18,862 nucleotides of DNA, taken from contig NW_013654566.1 in the NCBI RefSeq assembly GCF_000499385.1, positions 1 through 18,862 of the forward strand. The letters are read 5' to 3'. The notes under the pieces are model-generated. The model was given only the letters and a program-made list of their open reading frames with translations, was not told where the DNA came from and searched no databases. The position numbers and the translations under genes were made by a program. Every line of letters begins with the position of its first letter. The first letter of the stretch is position 1. Positions 1,907 to 18,862 of the stretch are shown here, piece by piece. Source of the DNA: Eimeria necatrix. Its lineage: Eukaryota > Apicomplexa > Conoidasida > Eucoccidiorida > Eimeriidae.

Positions 1907-2201
1907 ACGATTAGAACGTTCGTTATCTTGGCAAGCGCTGGCGAGTGCGTTATTACAGCATATGCACTCTCGTCGCGATTGAACAGCGCAAACGCTAATA
2001 TGTCCTAGCCACCTGCCTGAACTCGTTCCAGCGTACGGCTTTCGACAAGGCTTTTGCTCTTCCCCACAATCCACTTAAACCTGCTCCACAGGAGCCCACA
2101 AGCATTGGCCGGCAACTAACAAAAACAACTTTGTCTGCACTTCAGATCCACCCTACAAAGTCGCTGTCTCCAGCACGTCAAGCTCTTTCTGGCGCCAAAC
2201 G
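1907..2201 (+). repeat. 295-bp direct repeat, copy 1
   Basis: This segment pairs with 2361-2655 at a constant spacing of about 454 bases. A central stretch of more than 50 bases, beginning near the AGCATATGCACTCTCG motif at about 1957, is identical in both copies. Other parts carry scattered substitutions, for example CTCCACAGGAGCCCAC here against CTCCACAGTAGCCCAC in copy 2. Similarity fades upstream, where the next 30 bases still align loosely, and stops downstream after the GGCGCCAAACG end. No coding capacity is evident. It could be two units of a degenerate satellite, or a segmental tandem duplication with about 160 bases of unrelated sequence between the copies. Confidence 0.93.
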
Positions 2202-2360
2202 CACATCCTGTCTCCCAAATGCATCAAACGCACCTATGATCCCATCTAACATCTCCGCTACCACTGCCCACGCTGCGAGGTATCCCACCATCAGCCTACA
2301 CGCATCCTTCACAAACCAAAGTGGCCAGATATGGGCCAAGGCGCAAAGAATGCACAGTGC

Positions 2361-2655
2361 ACGATTGGAGCGCTCGTTATCTTGGCAAGCTCTGGTTGCT
2401 GTGCTAATACAGCATATGCACTCTCGTCGCGATTGAACAGCGCAAACGCTAATATGTCCTAGCCATCTGCCTAAACTCGTTCCAGCGTACGACTTTCGGC
2501 AAGGCATTTGCTCTTCCCCACAATCCGCTTAAACCTGCTCCACAGTAGCCCACAAGCATTGGCCGGCAACTAACAAAAACAACTTTGTCTGCACTTCAGA
2601 TCCACCCTACAAAAGTCGCTTTTTGAGCACTTCAAGCTCTTTTTGGCGTTAAACG
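2361..2655 (+). repeat. 295-bp direct repeat, copy 2
   Basis: This is the second copy of the 1907-2201 unit, in the same orientation. It diverges by point substitutions and small indels, such as an extra A in the CTACAAAAGTCGC segment near 2608-2620. Its right end, GGCGTTAAACG, matches the GGCGCCAAACG end of copy 1, so the boundary is shared. Nothing in it resembles a transposon end or a coding exon. Confidence 0.93.
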
Positions 2656-3130
2656 GAAATTTTTTGTCGTAGATTTGCGTAGTGCGGCAAAGTAAATGAT
2701 TGCTACTTTATTGCTGAGCCCATGAATAGCTGAAGGCAAGTTGGAACTTGGATTCTCCAGGGTCACGCCTTCAAAGCAGACTGTGGTAAGAAAGAGAACA
2801 TTTATCCCGCTTGCCCCTATTTCAGGCTGGCGCACCACACCCGGCACATCGGCCTACCGTGTCATACAGAAGGAGCTGCAAGATAATTGCAGTGTACGTG
2901 CCTTGACTCTCAGCCTCAACTTCAGCACATGTGACGCCTATGTCGCACATTTGCTGAGCGCTCTGAGCAACTCTGCAAAAGCCTCGGGCGATCTAATCCA
3001 ATGTCGGCCTGTGCGTGTTCAGTAGACCGATGTGTTTCGATAGTCATTCGCTTCTCCTCACCACGAGCCTTCATTAGCCATTCACAGCCGACAGCCTTTT
3101 CAAAATTACGCCACAATCTCGTTGCATTAA

Positions 3131-3245
3131 CGATTTTTATGCAAGCTGTTTGCTCTTACGTTACGGCATCTCCACTCTCGTCATGAAATAAAGACCCGAA
3201 CTCTCCTCTGCGTTCATCGCCCATCTGGCCTTGTTACCAGCGACT
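3131..3245 (+). repeat. Diverged third copy of the 454-spaced repeat
   Basis: Landmarks of the repeat recur in order: GCAAGCT (3141), CACTCTCGTC (about 3173-3182), CCATCTG (3221) and a final CCAGCGAC (3237-3244). The offsets from copy 2 are 756-758 bases throughout, so the colinearity is hard to ascribe to chance. Sequence between landmarks is much more diverged than between copies 1 and 2. This is visual alignment only. Confidence 0.55.
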
Positions 3246-3987
3246 AAGAACCCTGCACAGGACCAATGGGCGAAACTTTTTTCCATGGCCGCCGATTTTT
3301 TTGCCGATTTCAAGACAGCCCACTGACGCTAAACTACAGTTATGAATGTTGACAACCTCGACACCTGATTTGTACACAGCCTTTCCTCCACATATTTCCA
3401 GTGCCCTTTTCCCCACAAACGCATTCCGGGCTTTTACCGCGTACCCGCACCGCATCTATAGTGGCAGCTGCGCCATACAAACTTCATTCCTCCTGCTGCA
3501 TGCCAGTGACTGTGCCACAACTCTACAGGCGCCCGCAAAATTTGCAGATTCTGCAGTGGAAACTTTCCACCCAACGGAAACGACGCGCACACGTTGCAGG
3601 TCGCCGTAAAATCCCGTTTCACCTCTATGACGTTTTCTAAAGTAGGGACCCAGTGACGAGTCACGCCATGGCTATACGTAACCTGCACCCACCTGCACTG
3701 TTTTGCTTCCGCGCAGCTACAAGGGCCTACAAATTAGCTGCAATATGCGCGAATTTAGACATCATCACGAGTCCAGCGTGGTGGGATTAAAGGTACCCCT
3801 ACAAAGTGCACGGTAAGATGTTTGCATCCATAGCAAATTCCGTATTCTTCCAGCTGCCTAACGATGCCACGCTAAACCATACCCTGTTTTGTACAGAAAC
3901 GGATGCAGACTGTGCATATACACCTTGCCAACACAAGCTCACCTCCTTGCACGACAACACCGAAGTTCTGCGCCCGCCTGTCCCACA

Positions 3988-4006
3988 TTTTGTTTTGAAA
4001 ACAAAA
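3988..4006. repeat. A/T-rich short palindrome
   Basis: TTTTGTTTT and AAAACAAAA are perfect reverse complements separated by one G. The hairpin is short and may be fortuitous in this composition. Confidence 0.7.
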
Positions 4007-4236
4007 CAGGTGCAAGTTACGCATCTCTTTCATGCATCCTAGAGCGCCCATGACATAACTAAGGTTGAGTGCCAGCTGCGCTCCAACAATCTTGCTGTGC
4101 GCATGCGTCAATGCTCGCCCGCAATTTCTCCACTCCGAGCACTGTCGTGCATGGCGGCTCATTGCTTCAAGCAGCACTGCACAAGCACTGCTATTTTCAA
4201 ACCGAAATGTCCGCACACTCACGACACTGGCATTCC

Positions 4237-4380
4237 CAGACAGTCAGACTCTCCGTCTCATCACCAACATCGTCCTCCACAGTCAAACTGTACGAAAACA
4301 ACCTTGATTCCATAAAATGGTGAAATGCGTATGACGCGTTCACTTTTCCCGGGCATGCTGTTGTCCGTGGCACTAGACAA
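4237..4380 (+). repeat. Second repeat family, copy A
   Basis: Shared blocks with 5578-5746 in the same order include CAGACAGTCAGAC, a CTCCG-TCTCAT block, a TCGT-CT-CACAG block, a GCGTTCAC block and CACTAGACAA at the right end. The intervening spacing varies by small indels. Divergence looks greater than for the 1907/2361 pair. No coding sequence is recognisable. Confidence 0.7.
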
Positions 4381-4810
4381 TCTGCGCTCTTGTCTCCAAG
4401 CAAAAGGCACAGTTGCTATCTTGCGCACAGCACCTATCCAAACTTGATGCCAGTGTATCGCCGCCCTTGGTTCCTAGTTTGCCGTCCATCAGAGACAACT
4501 TTAACAGATGTCCAAAACCAGAAGATTCAGCAACGTGCAGGAGTTTGCAAAGCTCAGAGCGCAATCATGCCACGCTCATGTTTCCGACACATGACATTTG
4601 CTGGGAAACTAGAGTATATGCGTTCTTGCTTTAGAGTAGAACGGCGGACGCTTTTTTTGCGAGTAGCACCTGTCCTACATCGTTGCCAGCTTCAGGTAGG
4701 GTTTAATTCGCTTTGTGTCATCTTCAGTCTCTGTGTAGCCAATTTCAAAACGGCCAGAATTCGCCGAATGCCAGTTATTCATGTATGCTCTCTTCCGTAC
4801 CTCATTCCCA

Positions 4811-4829
4811 TATAGGTATATATATATAT
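4811..4829. repeat. TA microsatellite
   Basis: A short run of TA dinucleotides, interrupted once by GG near its left end. No function is implied. Confidence 0.85.
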
Positions 4830-5577
4830 CTTTAGCGTTTGCTGATACAAGGCGCACCTTCTGTTTTCCGCAGATGCACCCAATGCGCCTACGATTACAT
4901 GTAACTCACGGTGCCTCCCCTCATGCTGCAGGGGTCTGGTTGTTACACACTTCCACAGGCTTGCTCTGGAACTTTAATCGTAAAATCTGCACAGAAGACT
5001 GCCTACAGATTCAAAAGAAACGGGACATGTTGCAGCTCGTTGCGAAGCTCCACTCAAACTCCCTAACTTCACGGACGGTAAGAACGAAGTGTGATGTCAC
5101 GGACCACCTTGAGTACACGCCAGCACGGCTGCGCCAAGTCACTGCCGCACTGTTGCAAAGACCCACGAGCTGTTTGCAGAACAACCTAGACCACATGCAG
5201 CACCATGCTTTCTAGGCGGCGGCATGAAAGACACACCTGAAACATAAAGGTTTGGACAAAAGCGTACACTGAGCACACTGGGCCGCTTCTCTAGCAGCGA
5301 AATCGCACGATATTATAACAACAGATTACATGTAAAATGCAAAAACGCAAATTATGCATGCATCTCGTGTAACCTGGCTTTCATCTTCCTGTGGGGCAAC
5401 GCCAATGTTATGCGCTAAACTCTATGGGCTTGATGCGCGCATGCTCGACCCTCTCTCTGCATTCATGCACTTCCGTTGCACTCCTTTGTGCCTGCTAATC
5501 ACTGTGGGCACTTCTGCACAAACCTTCAACGGTCTGCTCCAGGCTCTGCGTTTGCATGCCCAGCGAACGGATGCTTT

Positions 5578-12040: not shown

Positions 12041-12515
12041 ATGTGCTTTTTTTAGTGTATTGTTTAGTGCCTTTTGTCATGGCTTGAAGTTCAATAGCAG
12101 CTTCTCGTCGGGTTTCATTTTTGCTCAGAAAGGCTGCTCTGTAAGCAAGCGACTGTTTATATGCTATTTTTGTGTTTCTTTGTAGCGTTTGCTTTGATTT
12201 TGTGGGGGTACTTGGCCTCCTGAGACGCAATCGTTTTATCTGCGGTCGCGTTTCCTTGTCTTCCTGCTACTGCTTTGTACTGCAAAACGGTGCTCATGAT
12301 GCTCCCTCTGCAGTCTACTGCCACTACAGTGTTCTCATACTAGGGCCGGCGTAAACAATGCGCGAGCTATTGCAAATATATGTACAAACACCTGAATCTA
12401 GTTATACTAAATATGGGAAAACTTAAGTACACCGAGAAGAAATAGAGACGCGGATACACGCAAGTGTTTTCCGAACCAAATACCTCACCCTCGCAGCAGC
12501 TGAAATGCTTTCGGC
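12041..12515. other. No recognisable gene
   Basis: Mixed composition. A minus-strand frame (12230-11979) is hydrophilic and Lys/Thr-rich, but has no motif and runs into the telomere-like cluster, so I do not call it. Nothing else stands out. Confidence 0.5.
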
Positions 12516-12701
12516 ATGAAAGCGGTGAAAAGCCACAAAATATATGGAAAGAGAAGCACAATTCAAGGAGAAAAGTTGAAAACTTGTGCTTTTATTCCTG
12601 CTGCTGCCGCTGCTGCTGCTGTTCCTGCTGCTGTTCGTGTTTCTAGAGATGAAAAAGCTCCTGCTGGCTTAACGAGCTTGCCATCTGCTACTCCTAATTG
12701 A
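12516..12701 (+). CDS. Possible low-complexity exon with alanine run
   Basis: A 61-codon frame contains seven consecutive Ala codons, mostly GCT, flanked by Pro and Val, encoded by the CTG/GCT repeat at 12596-12640. A hydrophilic Ser/Pro tail follows to a TGA stop. Alanine and glutamine homopolymers encoded by GCA/GCT/CAG triplets are a hallmark of Eimeria proteins, so a coding origin is plausible. There is no domain and no clear splice signal, and the repeat is open in other frames too. It may equally be non-coding repeat. Confidence 0.25.
   Translation: MKAVKSHKIYGKRSTIQGEKLKTCAFIPAAAAAAAVPAAVRVSRDEKAPAGLTSLPSATPN
12596..12640 (+). repeat. CTG/GCT trinucleotide repeat
   Basis: Imperfect run of CTG triplets with CCG and TTC interruptions. 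It is the first of the CTG/CAG blocks that continue to 15.05 kb. Confidence 0.9.
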
Positions 12702-13802
12702 CGGGATCTCTCAAAAATAAGATGGACTGCTTTCAATGTTCAAAACCCATTGCCCGCGGCTTCGGTGCTGCTGCTGCGTTTGCTTATGATGGGTTAGTCG
12801 GTGCTACCGCGTCTGTTGTAGGAATTCTCCCTCCTCTGAGTTGCTGCAGCAACAACTTAGTTGCTGGTGTGCGCCTGAAGAAGATGTAGGAAAAGATTTC
12901 CAAAGCATTCTTAAAGTCGCGACGAGTGTAGACAGCTAAGTAGCAAAGTACTTCTCTGTCCGTGGCCTTGTTTCTGCAAATTATCGGTGGATCTTCGAAG
13001 TGCAGCAGTCGCTTGAAACAGCAGGAGCGCAGGCATGGAAAAGCATGCTACGCACTTGGGAATTCGTGTGAACCCGGATATGCCTGTATACCTGAACAGA
13101 GAATTGCAACGTGGATGCGCGGTGGGTGGTTTCGCCTTCCCAAAGCATGGTATTGAACTGATTGAACATAAGATCGAAATAAGGGAAACAGAAGAGCAAG
13201 GATAAAGCCGGGAAGAAGCAGCTATAAGCGCAACAAACCGGCCTGGACATACACCCAGACCATTGAAACAGCGGCACATCGCGAAAACATACAAGAAGAT
13301 AGTTTGAAACGAACTCAGATGCTTTACAGTGCTCTAGTCATTTGAAAACAAGTAATGCAAAGAGGGTGCAAAAAAGACGAAGATAAACTAAAGTATGCAA
13401 AAGTCGCTGTTCCGGCGTGGTGTACGCGCATCGTACAGTTACACGCAATAAAAATTATCTGATTTCGACCGCTCCAAATATAGTATAACAACACCGGAAA
13501 GGTATTATTTGGTCACCTAGTATTCTGAGGACAACAAATTCAACAGGGAAAATGTTGGATTCTGGGGTCTGGCCCACGAGCTCTTGGGGCAGTGGATGGT
13601 TATTCTGTTGCACGCACACATTTGATGCTGACACAAGCAAAAAGAATAGCTCTTACCGGTTCTGCTTTCAAAACAAACGAATCAACTATGAAATAGACGC
13701 AAAAATGAATGAACCAACGAAAAGGAAGGTAGTGAACATAAATAAACAAACCCCCAAACAGCTTCCTGCTGGCGCTATCTACATTGCACCACAGAGACTT
13801 TC
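12702..13802. other. No recognisable gene; palindrome GTTGCTGCAGCAAC at 12840
   Basis: Frames of 60-127 codons occur on both strands without motifs or consistent strand preference. Two small candidates, 12698-12889 and 13552-13806 on the plus strand, are not supported by composition or splice sites. A perfect 14-base palindrome centred on CTGCAG lies at 12840-12853 and fits the CTG/CAG richness of the area. Confidence 0.45.
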
Positions 13803-14025
13803 CTGACTAGCTTATGCTACTAGCTAGCTATCGGCATGAGTAAGTGGCCGAGTATGCTCCTTGTCTTTGTAAAGGGCGACCTATCTACACCCTAGCTAAT
13901 CATTTGGTCAAGTGTCCACGTAGCTTTCGATCTAGCTGCTGAAATAGCTAACTAGCTCCTTAATAAGGCGCGAAGAAGCACTGCAGCTTTATACTAACAG
14001 TGCGTCTGCTTGACTAGCTCTAACT
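13803..14025. repeat. TAGCT-rich patch
   Basis: The pentamer TAGCT (or its complement AGCTA) recurs about ten times in roughly 220 bases, sometimes overlapping as CTAGCTAGCTA near 13820. Spacing is irregular. It may be a decayed tandem repeat or simple-sequence drift; no gene is seen. Confidence 0.55.
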
Positions 14026-14099
14026 GCCTCTTCAAGGCAGCCCGTAAATGAATAATTAACATACACCAGCAAATCAAGCTTTAAGTAGCAAAGCCAGAA

Positions 14100-14770
14100 G
14101 CCCTCGATATTCGCTGCTTCTGTCTCTGCTTCTGCTGTCTCATATGTGTGGCTGCTGCTGCTGAGTCTTCTGCTGGTGCTTTGGCTGCCGGTGCTGTAGC
14201 CTAGAGCACAGCTGCTGCAACTCTGTAAGAAGGCTTCTTGCACAGTAAACATGCTTTTGAAAGCAAATTAATCCTGCTTTATCTTTCGCTCTCCTCACAT
14301 GCTGCTACTGCATCGGCTGCCTTGTTTATTGCGGCTGTGTCTGCAGCACTGTAGCAGCAGCACCAGATTTGCCGGCGGTCAAAATACCGTGCTTCTGCTG
14401 CTGTTACTCGAAGCCTGTGGCCACATAACTCGATTTTGATGAAGTTTCGCTAGTTACTTCCCCTCCTGCTGCAGCGTCTGCCACTGCTGTCACAATGTCT
14501 GCCGATACTGCTCGCTGCCGTTTCTGCTGCTGCTGGTTTGCTGCTGAAGGTGTGCGTGGTCCCTCCTCAATCATCTCGTCTCATCACATTGATACTTCCA
14601 AAAGAAGATGCAGCGGAGCTTCAGCAGGAATTGCCGCTACTTGCCGCGGCATGCAGAGGAAAGCGGTCGCAGCTTTTGAAGCTTCAATGACTCATCGTCA
14701 TCTTGTGCTACTGCCACGTGCTGCTGCTGCTACTTGCTGCTGTTGCCACGTGCTGCTGCTATTTTCTGCC
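14100..14770 (+). repeat. CTG-rich trinucleotide domain (CTG on plus strand)
   Basis: Short CTG/GCT runs recur in clusters: about 14120-14226, 14300-14370, 14392-14410, 14463-14549 and 14707-14768. The last contains the duplicate GCCACGTGCTGCTGCT. Interruptions are frequent, so these are old, imperfect arrays. GCA/CAG-type triplets in Eimeria are mostly found within coding sequence. Here several frames are open on both strands, so coding status is unresolved. Confidence 0.85.
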
Positions 14771-14971
14771 AAGTGCGGACAGCATCACCATCGCCCAACT
14801 CACAGCCACTGCCGGCCCACCGTAGCTTACAGCTCCAGGCATTTGGGGCGGACGTCTGCTGCTTCGTCTGTGGCTGCTTTTGGCTTTGCAGCAACAGACA
14901 AAGGGGAAGCGCCGACGCTGCTCCTGGTTTGCGGCTGTTGCAAGGCTGGAGTCGTCAGTAGCAGACGCTAA
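14495..14971 (+). CDS. Possible low-complexity coding frame, Ala/Cys/Ser/His-rich
   Basis: A 158-codon frame runs through the CTG-rich domain and stops at TAA (14969-14971). The same frame then continues open for about 35 codons as an Ala/Val/Thr-rich tail across the CAG-rich 14990-15050 stretch, so the TAA could be a late disruption or lie in an intron. Cys and Ala clusters simply mirror TGC and GCT repeats. There is no signal peptide, domain or strong splice site. The minus strand is also open at 15088-14759. I treat it as an uncertain, possibly decayed exon. Confidence 0.2.
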   Translation: MSADTARCRFCCCWFAAEGVRGPSSIISSHHIDTSKRRCSGASAGIAATCRGMQRKAVAAFEASMTHRHLVLLPRAAAATCCCCHVLLLFSAKCGQHHHRPTHSHCRPTVAYSSRHLGRTSAASSVAAFGFAATDKGEAPTLLLVCGCCKAGVVSSRR

Positions 14972-14988
14972 TCCGTGTGCGCTGACAC

Positions 14989-15049
14989 ACCAGCAGTAAC
15001 AGCACCAGCACATGCGTCCGCAGCGGTAGCTGTTGCTGCAGTAACAGCA
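14989..15049 (+). repeat. CAG/GCA-rich block (opposite strand bias)
   Basis: Here CAG/GCA triplets lie on the plus strand, opposite to the CTG bias just upstream, with GCAGTAACAGCA at 14993-15004 repeated at 15038-15049. The adjoining GTTGCTGCAGTAAC (15032-15045) is almost palindromic. The switch of strand bias puts complementary CTG- and CAG-rich blocks within a few hundred bases. Confidence 0.75.
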
Positions 15050-15149
15050 GTCGCGTCCCGCCTCTGTTTCCAAAGCTAAACGTTGCATTTAGTTCTGAAA
15101 ATACATTCTATGTCAAGCCTATTTATCCAGTCGAATCTGTGAAAATAAT

Positions 15150-15349
15150 TATCTGGAACAAGCAGAAGTTGACCAGAAAAATTCAAACAAAAAGCAATAA
15201 GCAATCCAGACAAAAAGCAGCGGACTAGAAACACGCAAGGACATCGATGCCATGAAATATCAATGTCCTTGCGTGTTTCTAGTCCGCTGTTTTTTGTCTG
15301 GATTGCTTATTGCTTTTTGTTTGAATTTTTCTGGTCAACTGCTTAGATA
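15150..15349. repeat. Long near-perfect inverted repeat (hairpin or foldback element)
   Basis: The left arm 15169-15244 and right arm 15263-15338 are 76 bases each and reverse-complementary except for one position. At that position G in the left arm (15218) faces T in the right, which would still pair as G-U in RNA. The loop is 18 bases (15245-15262). Beyond a three-base AAG bulge in the left arm, AAGCAG (15160-15165) pairs with CTGCTT (15339-15344). After a further five-base bulge, TATCT (15150-15154) pairs with AGATA (15345-15349). No target-site duplication or coding sequence is seen. It could be a MITE-like foldback element, an inverted duplication, a transcribed dsRNA hairpin, or an assembly or cloning foldback artefact. 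Confidence 0.96.
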
Positions 15350-18300
15350 CATTTACTCTCACGTGTCCCACAGATAACGTTCCCGGCGAGGGAGAAAGCT
15401 CCACGTTCGACAAAATTTGTTAATGCGTTTCAAAAGCACGTAAATGTTGTTTGAGGAGAATCACAGTTTTATCTTTTTAAGCATAATCCAAGGAAATGTA
15501 AAGCGTGAATAACGAGCATATAACCGAGGCGTGGCGTTCTCACGGAATTTCGATTGGAATATCATTTACACAGTGCATACATGTGTCTTCCTTCGGATTT
15601 CTAGAAATATTGAAAAATGAGGGGTTAGTAGAATAGCTCATGGTGCTCCTAATGCATTTTCGCACACAAGAAAAGTGCATATACTTCCAAGCATGCTTCA
15701 CTGGCTCTTCTTCAAGTTTCGCCTTACGTGGCTGACAAGTCTGACGAAAATTCCAGGGAGAAATTCACAAAATATCTCTCGCTGATCCAATGCCGAGTTA
15801 AAATGAGGCATTGTGATGCTGAAGCTCTACTAAATGAGCCGCAATAAATAGTAGGTGCTCCAGAAAAACGTAGGATAAGGCGCATTTGGTAGCTTACCAC
15901 GCTATTGGGGCTCTTATGCTTCTTGCGCTGAATAATAGGTTCCACGCAGCATCCAAGAACTACTTAAGCCTAGAATTATGCTTGTACAGAAAACCTAAGA
16001 GACCCGTTTTGGCTAAAAGGAGGTCGTTTTAATCATTGGGAGTGATATACCTTCAGTTCCAAGTCGTCCTACGTAGTAAACGGCGATCATGCGCGTGACC
16101 AAAGATCCTCCGACACAAAAGTCAAGGATTGAAAATTGGTGAGGCCAGAGGCCCCGTGAGAGGAGTTTGCACTCTTTATTTGATGTGCATTCTCCGTGTT
16201 GCAGACGCTTAGAAGTAGAGCGGAGAAGTCTTCTAGTGGCTGCCATCCATAAAACAAGCACAGTACTCTGCACGGAGAAAACCAAAAATACCATGTGGAT
16301 TTTTTCGTACAAAAGTGCGACCGACGATAGTCTGAACGTGGCGGTCTGCCCGGTGGAACACCACTTTTTTTAACTCCTGAACCAGGAGACCCTGCTGTTT
16401 CGCCGGTGTCCCTTAGAAAATGAGATAAGCCCGTGTGCTTCTCCAACCGAAGCCGCTACGCTAACCATGGAGCACCGGCATTCAATCAATGAGCTAGCGT
16501 ACATTCTGAGGGCAGGCAGGTCTCATCGGAAAGTTCAGCATCTGACTTAGCCTGCAAATAATCACGTCAAAGCTTCCTCGATGAAGTTGCTGTTCGGCGA
16601 TAGCTCGCAGATAGAATATTCTCCCCACATGAGCAAATGCGACATTCAACATGCGCTCTTGACGGCTTAATTACTGCGTTTTTTTCCTCCATTGAGGCCT
16701 TCCAAAATCGGCCATGAAGCTCTTGCTGGTCCAGAGCTCTTCTTCATTTTAGTGTTGTTTAGCACTCGAACAAGGAGCCCTAGCCATTCAAATGCACCTT
16801 TGACTACGAAGTTGCAAATTAACCCGTTTAGGCAAGCCCAGCACTACACGTACACTTTGTTGCTGTCATGCAGCAGAGTAGGCTTCGCACTTCTTGTTTC
16901 TCGCAGAGTGCGAACAGCAGTCTCATCGTACGGGCATTTTGAAAGGAATTTTAGAGTCCGTCGTGAACAATTCAGGCAGAAGCCACTGGCCGGCCGCAGT
17001 TTACATCTACAGATCAGGACTTGAATTGCCTGGCAAACAGAGCAAACTGTACTTCGACGCGCGGCAATCCTCATGATGGTTAAAAAGCTCGCTCGATCTC
17101 CTCGGTTCTGGCTCCAGAACGAGCCTGATTACGTAGCAGTGTGTTAGACGTTACTTACCTCAACGACTACAACCACTTATCGAATGTATCTTGAATTGCC
17201 ATCAAGCACTGCTTGGAGTACGTGGTACGACAGGAAGCATCGAGGCATTTTTCAAATAGAGTCACGAGAAAGCGCATGAAGATTAGGATACCTGCCTTTT
17301 TGTATAAGTAATCGACGCAATTTTATTCCTCAAGTAAGTACGCTTGCAAAGTTTTCAACCAGTCAAATAAACACCAGTGTCGTGTGACACCGTAGGCCAT
17401 ATTTTGGCAGCCTCCACCCGCATGTGTGTGCTCGCTGCAAACCACAATGCTTCAAAGAGATATCTTGAAAGGGTCACAAAAGCTCGCTACATGTTGATGA
17501 GGCCGCAGAGTATTGCAAGGCGGCGCCGGGGGTGTATAGCCCAATTCTCAAAACACTGCAAGCAACAAATGAGTGCTCGTTCGAACGCTTGTTCGCCTTA
17601 CCTCGCAAAATGCCCATAATCGAACACCCAATCGGATACTAATACCGTGGTCCAAATATCGCAACGGCATTATCCATTAGACAAGCATGCAACGTCTTGA
17701 CAGCACGACCTGCTCTTGACAGCACGACCTGATCGTCTCGAACACAGCGGAAAGGAACAGGTAAGTGGCAGCCTAGTCCACAAGCTGAGCAATGCTTGGC
17801 CTGCAGGACAAGTAATGCTTTCTATAAATCAGACATTTCGTCACACTATGCATTCAGAAGCACCGAATATTTCTTCTGTCGTCGAGTGCAAAATCATTGT
17901 GTATGCGCAGATACTTCAATACCGCGTATAAGGGTGCTTCATACAACCGAATTACCTGGTGAATACCACGTGTTCGAGCTGCTGTTGGTTCCATAATTCG
18001 CAGGATTTAGAGCCTTAGAAGAGTGACACGGTTTGGAGGGCACAGCTCGTTTGTGACCGATTGTGAGGTGGGTAAGGCCTTCTTAGGAAGCGTACTCAGA
18101 TACCACCAACGCTCTACGGTGAGCTCAAAGATAAATGCCACAATTGGGCACGTGTCAGCTTTCCATAAGATACAGAATGGAAAGGCGAAACAAAGAGCAG
18201 CAGGGAATGCACCAGTAAACGACCCGTGCAACGCCTGTAGGGGCCAAAGCCTAGCAATTAATCTTGGTAAGGTACTTCATAGCATCCAACACGGCAAATG

Positions 18301-18862
18301 TTTCCAATGAACTACTCAACCACCAATGCCGATAAACATACCAAACAATTTCTCTGCAGTTTCCACCCACCAACATATAAATCAAAATGTTTCAAAGAAA
18401 TGCCTTTACCTGAAGCAGCACAGGGAGATTTTTTCTTCCTTTGCATATCACGCTTATGAATCTTCATTGGCATGTCAATGCTCATTAGAACAACGCATGA
18501 GCTGTACACCGCAAGTGTCGTGTTCCGATTGCGATTGATCAAAGAATGCTAGCTTGGTTGATATCAAATATAGCATTCGGTATTTTCCCGAAATGGTTCG
18601 AAATATCGATTCACGCTCAGAAGAACGAACAGTGTACTGATTGTTACAAACCTGCTTCCCTAGGCACTTGCGAAAATTACCCACTTTAACACGAAATGCT
18701 CTTGACGCAGAGAACAAATCTCATTTTATAATTTGACCATCATTCGAAACATTTTTTGACTACAAATAAATCAAATAAAAACATTCCAAATTTGTTACTG
18801 ACATCCATTCAGAACCTGGCACCTACAAACACTTAATTTCAGCAGACCAGATTGCCCTGAGA
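15350..18862. other. No recognisable gene
   Basis: Open frames of 60-119 codons occur on both strands (for example 16446-16087 minus, 16692-17024 plus, 18023-18310 plus). They overlap one another, lack signal peptides or motifs, and have no convincing splice signals. Composition is balanced, without the C-rich bias of the left end. Small hairpins such as GTTCTGG-CT-CCAGAAC (17105-17120) are unremarkable. Exons of an unrecognised gene cannot be ruled out. Confidence 0.5.
17695..17731. repeat. Two-copy 19-base tandem duplication
   Basis: TCTTGACAGCACGACCTG occurs at 17695-17712 and again at 17714-17731, giving a period of 19 bases. The copies are identical, so the duplication is recent. Confidence 0.92.

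Follow-up and report, generated by a model that had tools for sequence, protein, structure and literature searches.

How a long and nearly perfect inverted repeat came to lie in otherwise diverged repeat DNA was the question raised by an 18,862-nucleotide stretch of DNA (the window). Such a structure could be a mobile element, a hairpin under selection, an artefact, or the trace of a recent mutation. Comparison with related copies in the same genome indicated that it is most likely a recent, one-off templated inverted insertion, a silent scar left by a known kind of mutation.

The inverted repeat at 15150–15349 was confirmed by symmetric pairing about its centre, with arms at 15167–15244 and 15263–15340. 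Watson-Crick pairs are formed at 77 of the 78 positions, in an inner uninterrupted block of 27 bp (15218–15244 with 15263–15289) and an outer one of 50 bp (15167–15216 with 15291–15340). The sole non-Watson-Crick position is G15217 opposite T15290, which becomes a G-U pair solely upon transcription of the + strand. The loop of 18 bases and the single difference between the arms, as given in an earlier reading of this DNA, were both borne out by the pairing. The "76-bp arms" of that reading were correct in that the repeat is real; the paired arms span 78 positions and 76 is the length of the newly inserted sequence (Table 1). In a repeat search each arm reached 85 nt, at 96% and with 10 nt in between. 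When the window was scanned for inverted pairs with a 14-nt exact seed and at most 1.5 kb apart, this hairpin was found and no others.

Table 1. Positions, in window coordinates, of the parts of the hairpin and of the repeat that carries it.
Feature	Position	Strand	Basis or remark
Arm 1, ancestral, template for the copy	15167..15244	+	Also in C577 and C783 (paralogues), beside the same flank
18-nt spacer (loop)	15245..15262	.	Pairing about the centre
Imperfect fold-back pair, in spacer and arm ends	ATCGAT 15243–15248 / ATCAAT 15259–15264		Inner loop of 10 nt
AT shared by old flank and copy	15263–15264		
Arm 2, 76-nt inverted templated insertion in place of ancestral CA	15265..15340	-	Missing from 3/3 paralogues found; reverse-complements arm 1 except at one position
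Return point, where the old right flank GCTTAGATA restarts	15341..15349	+	Aligned with C577, C783 and C994
Sole arm difference, pairs with 15290	15217	+	Arm 1 G; arm 2 A (reverse-complemented); C577 A; C783 ambiguous
Low-copy dispersed repeat bearing the hairpin	12103..18862	.	Left edge near 12103 (versus C994); right edge past the contig end

We take the host to be an eimeriid coccidian. Its assembly has 1148 contigs totalling 44.0 Mb, the loci examined contain runs of CAG and of CCCTAAA, and surface antigens of family PF11054 gave 131 exon-wise matches, many of them arrayed, with none in 14 control genomes. For Eimeria falciformis, an assembly of 43.7 Mb in 753 contigs has been reported and CAG and CCCTAAA runs are described (PMC4287421). 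The hairpin is embedded in a low-copy repeat of at least 6.8 kb, which begins near 12103, reaches the right end of the window and has at least three further copies, on contigs C577, C783 and C994; the numbers of repeat and hairpin copies obtained from the own genome are lower bounds throughout. Over long stretches the copies are 81–90% identical, and their left edges differ (12103 for C994, 12131 for C577 and 13947 for C783, in window coordinates). By comparison with the own genome, window positions 2000–5000 matched only themselves. A Pfam scan at E ≤ 0.01 of 14 distinct ORFs and frames of the window, mostly the longer ones (10 ORFs and 5 further frames, one of which is an extended form of an ORF among the 10), matched no family. 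The description of the surroundings as decayed repeat DNA was thus roughly right, in the sense of a repeat with at least four copies, 81–90% alike, and no Pfam-recognised gene in the ORFs scanned.

A search for other copies and for empty sites, as had been advised in the sequence-only reading, showed that arm 2 is missing from each of the three paralogues found. The empty site reads ATCAAT-CA-GCATAGATACA in C577, ATCAAT-CA-GCTTAGATACA in C783 and ATTAAT-CA-GCTTAGATACA in C994. In the window, the CA gives way to 76 nt whose reverse complement is found in the adjacent DNA. Both C577 and C783 contain arm 1, with homologous flanks on either side of the empty site; arm 1 is therefore the older sequence, from which arm 2 was copied in inverted orientation. 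The copy on C994 has lost the sequence homologous to window positions 13577 to about 15240, and hence most of the arm 1 region, but its site is nonetheless empty. The break point of this deletion (L043, 2045–2069) lies near the inner end of the window's arm 1. As shown by the aligned copies, the ancestor had the order arm 1, spacer, ATCAAT, CA and GCTTAGATA, and after the split from C577 and C783 the CA was converted into 76 nt of reverse complement of DNA beginning about 20 nt upstream.

The empty sites bear directly on a second reading, that of a foldback or MITE-like mobile element inserted whole with long terminal inverted repeats. Foldback and MITE elements have a long inverted repeat and a short spacer, and it is by this shape alone, a long near-perfect inverted repeat about a short spacer, that the hairpin resembles them. 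Several complete copies at unrelated sites, a target-site duplication and an empty site lacking the whole unit would be expected of such an element. In the own genome, where counts are lower bounds, a second complete hairpin was not found and only single-arm paralogues were recovered besides the window. A target-site duplication was absent at the insertion, where CA was lost instead, and C577 and C783, which lack the insertion, retain arm 1. The letters AAGCAG...CTGCTT, named earlier as the outer ends in case the structure were mobile, are present, but they are not element ends, since the GCTT at the outer edge belongs to the old flank and also occurs at the sites lacking the insertion in C783 and C994 (GCAT in C577). 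Unlike foldback and MITE elements, the hairpin has one ancestral arm, carries no target-site duplication and was not found repeated as a unit. We consider a mobile element to be ruled out by the sister-copy empty sites, the probability that we would still assign to it being negligible.

The insertion was dated relative to the divergence of the copies, using columns in which C577 equals C783 within the arm and at least one window arm differs. Three states private to the window are common to both arms (15176, 15189 and 15222, the placement at 15173–15176 hinging on gap placement) and one is confined to arm 1 (15217). The presence of the three private substitutions in both arms implies that the window copy had already separated and diverged when the insertion took place. 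The base of C577 at 15217 is clearly A, as in arm 2, and the state of C783 is ambiguous because of a neighbouring gap, on the placement of which it depends; from these states, arm 1 would have mutated at this position after the insertion. The donor was local, since arm 2 is closer to its own arm 1 (77/78) than to the paralogues C577 and C783 (about 87%). The difference between the arms is 1.3% (1/78), while the window differs from C577 by 9.8% (153/1558 columns, window 13601–15150) and from C783 by 10.6% (128/1208 columns, window 13947–15149). A simple ratio of these values, calculated by hand and with an apparent age that later exchange between the arms could lower, would make the event about one tenth as old as the copy split (with a wide Poisson range, roughly 0.003 to 0.7). 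The proposal of a recent origin is upheld by the sister empty sites together with the shared private substitutions, and takes the form of a recent one-off inverted duplication. The near-identity of the arms is explained by youth, and no selection is required.

We regard it as very probable that the hairpin is the scar of a single short-range fold-back template-switch mutation. A template switch is recognised by new sequence that is the reverse complement of nearby ancestral DNA, here seen at 77 of 78 positions with arm 1 ancestral, and by the unmutated state in relatives with the flanks kept, here the empty site in all three paralogues found. A 3' end at 15264, either growing or broken, would have paired back through an imperfect inverted match of 6 nt and would then have been extended by about 76 nt with arm 1 as template. 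Its release would have been followed by rejoining to the right flank, with 2 bp lost, either because the end went back to its original template (replication) or because a break was closed by end joining. At the leaving point, ATCAAT pairs with ATCGAT (5/6 pairs, loop of 10 nt). An equally good fold-back pairing is available at 1749 of 18801 window positions (9.3%); so commonplace a match permits the model but, taken alone, is weak evidence for it. In the ancestor, the four points of the event lie in the order 3 (15167), 2 (15244), 1 (15264) and 4 (just right of CA), that is 3-2-1-4. In great apes this order is reported as one of the two majority patterns that yield single inverted repeats, and a point 2 preceding point 1 is described as allowing the nascent strand to have served as template (PMC7954356). 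The hairpin shares with the short-range template-switch model, as set out in that report, the local reverse-complement copy, the two switch points, the return to the old flank, the order 3-2-1-4 and the new near-perfect inverted repeat. It differs from the great-ape events described there in its tract of 76 nt, in its eimeriid-like genome and in being inferred via paralogues and not via sister species (PMC7954356).

On inspection of the return junction no clear microhomology was seen, which, like the ordinary priming match, counts against the model, and 2 bp are lost; this also fits fold-back priming at a break followed by end joining. Break repair in yeast is reported to generate fold-back inverted insertions at imperfect inverted microhomology; they measure from 2 to about 150 bp, the majority being shorter than 14 bp, and are joined with 0–5 bp of microhomology (PMC11724301). 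Priming by imperfect inverted microhomology would be common to these double-strand-break insertions and to the hairpin, and both have little or no microhomology at the far end; the 76 nt of the hairpin fall inside the range reported for yeast but exceed most of the yeast events described (PMC11724301). In the own genome, the Ku domain gave one exon match (E 2.5e-10). An identical scar is expected from either route, so that replication and break repair cannot be separated.

The junction with the right flank also bears on the possibility that the contig incorporates a fold-back chimera formed during sequencing, amplification or assembly. Chimeras of this type are a familiar fault of libraries and amplification, which speaks for this explanation. 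A simple chimera, however, would not rejoin exactly the old right flank that is common to three paralogues, and arm 2 carries the base of C577 at the sole arm difference (15217). The artefact that had been envisaged from the sequence is for these two reasons improbable.

Folding energies were computed against shuffled sequence, as had been suggested. The + strand of 15150–15349 folds at −144.5 kcal/mol (z −24.6) and the − strand of 15160–15344 at −140.4 kcal/mol (z −27.9). A chance origin of the pairing is excluded, because none of 200 shuffles of the + strand folded equally well and the seed scan of the window gave no second pair. For the one-armed paralogues no fold is seen: C577 gives an MFE of −4.4 kcal/mol (z +1.3) and C783 one of −5.6 kcal/mol (z +2.4). 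The + strand fold has the stability and length expected of a precursor of microRNAs or hairpin siRNAs, and the hairpin, if transcribed, would yield a strong dsRNA.

The very strong fold predicted for either strand favours a present function, in which a long dsRNA would be cut to small RNAs, possibly targeting the three sister copies of the repeat. At C218:42272–43729 (L046/L047), RNase III was matched twice on one strand, with about 1 kb between the matches; one covers the full profile and the other 47 of 102 profile positions, and the first was confirmed by Pfam in a 551-aa frame. At least one of the two lies in a frame rich in Q, S and A runs, possibly a Dicer-like gene. A Dicer-like protein with two RNase III domains has been described in E. 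tenella, which the pair on C218 resembles, and one Argonaute is reported in each Eimeria species examined (PMC9353057). Against this, the same report gives the Dicer-like protein as found in E. tenella alone among chicken coccidia (PMC9353057), and a Piwi profile had no match in the own genome at E ≤ 0.001, in an intron-blind search that was positive for 1 of 14 control genomes. A known microRNA family was rejected, since the nine Rfam matches at E ≤ 0.1 were all below their gathering scores (the best, mir-616, had 54.9 bits versus 100) and reflect the hairpin shape only. These sub-gathering matches also count against a small-RNA function, as does the fact that youth explains the identity of the arms without selection.

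New microRNA hairpins have been suggested to originate by template switching (PMC8794818), a point in favour of the functional reading. In both cases, as described in that report, one event produces a long hairpin from a single-arm ancestor; the present hairpin, in contrast to microRNAs of this origin, is known from DNA sequence alone (PMC8794818). In its most developed form, a newborn dsRNA gene would be proposed: one template switch would have made silent coccidian repeat DNA a transcribed hairpin, and small RNAs matching two sister copies at about 87% would act on the repeat family in trans via a minimal Dicer-like protein bearing a pair of RNase III domains. On balance, we hold a current small-RNA function to be highly improbable, and the newborn-gene scheme would have equally slender prospects. 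The hairpin is probably without selected function.

The locus offers a clean, polarised case in which one mutation gave rise to a 78-bp hairpin and in which the states before and after are found within one genome. The event is unusually legible, as the state before it survives in three sister copies, and it illustrates that near-perfect arms in old DNA require neither mobility nor selection. If expressed, the hairpin would provide a natural test of hairpin-gene birth in coccidia. Among the papers listed in the library searched on Eimeria or Apicomplexa and template switching or inverted duplication, no earlier event of this kind was seen, which does not prove absence.

Inverted pairs were also surveyed in 99,961 bases, consisting of the window and 22 of 47 loci, together a non-random sample. 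The survey gave 3712 raw pairs, 181 past a complexity filter and, among these 181, 4 with arms of at least 20; without the filter, simple repeats dominate. These four consist of two merged from separate CAG seeds (L035), the present hairpin and one pair in a tandem array (L016). The latter (C1063:63–3122, at 2536–2679 of the locus) is an inverted repeat with arms of about 64 nt, a spacer of 16 and an MFE of −116 kcal/mol; it lies inside a 26/78-bp tandem array and is perhaps an inverted stretch of that array.
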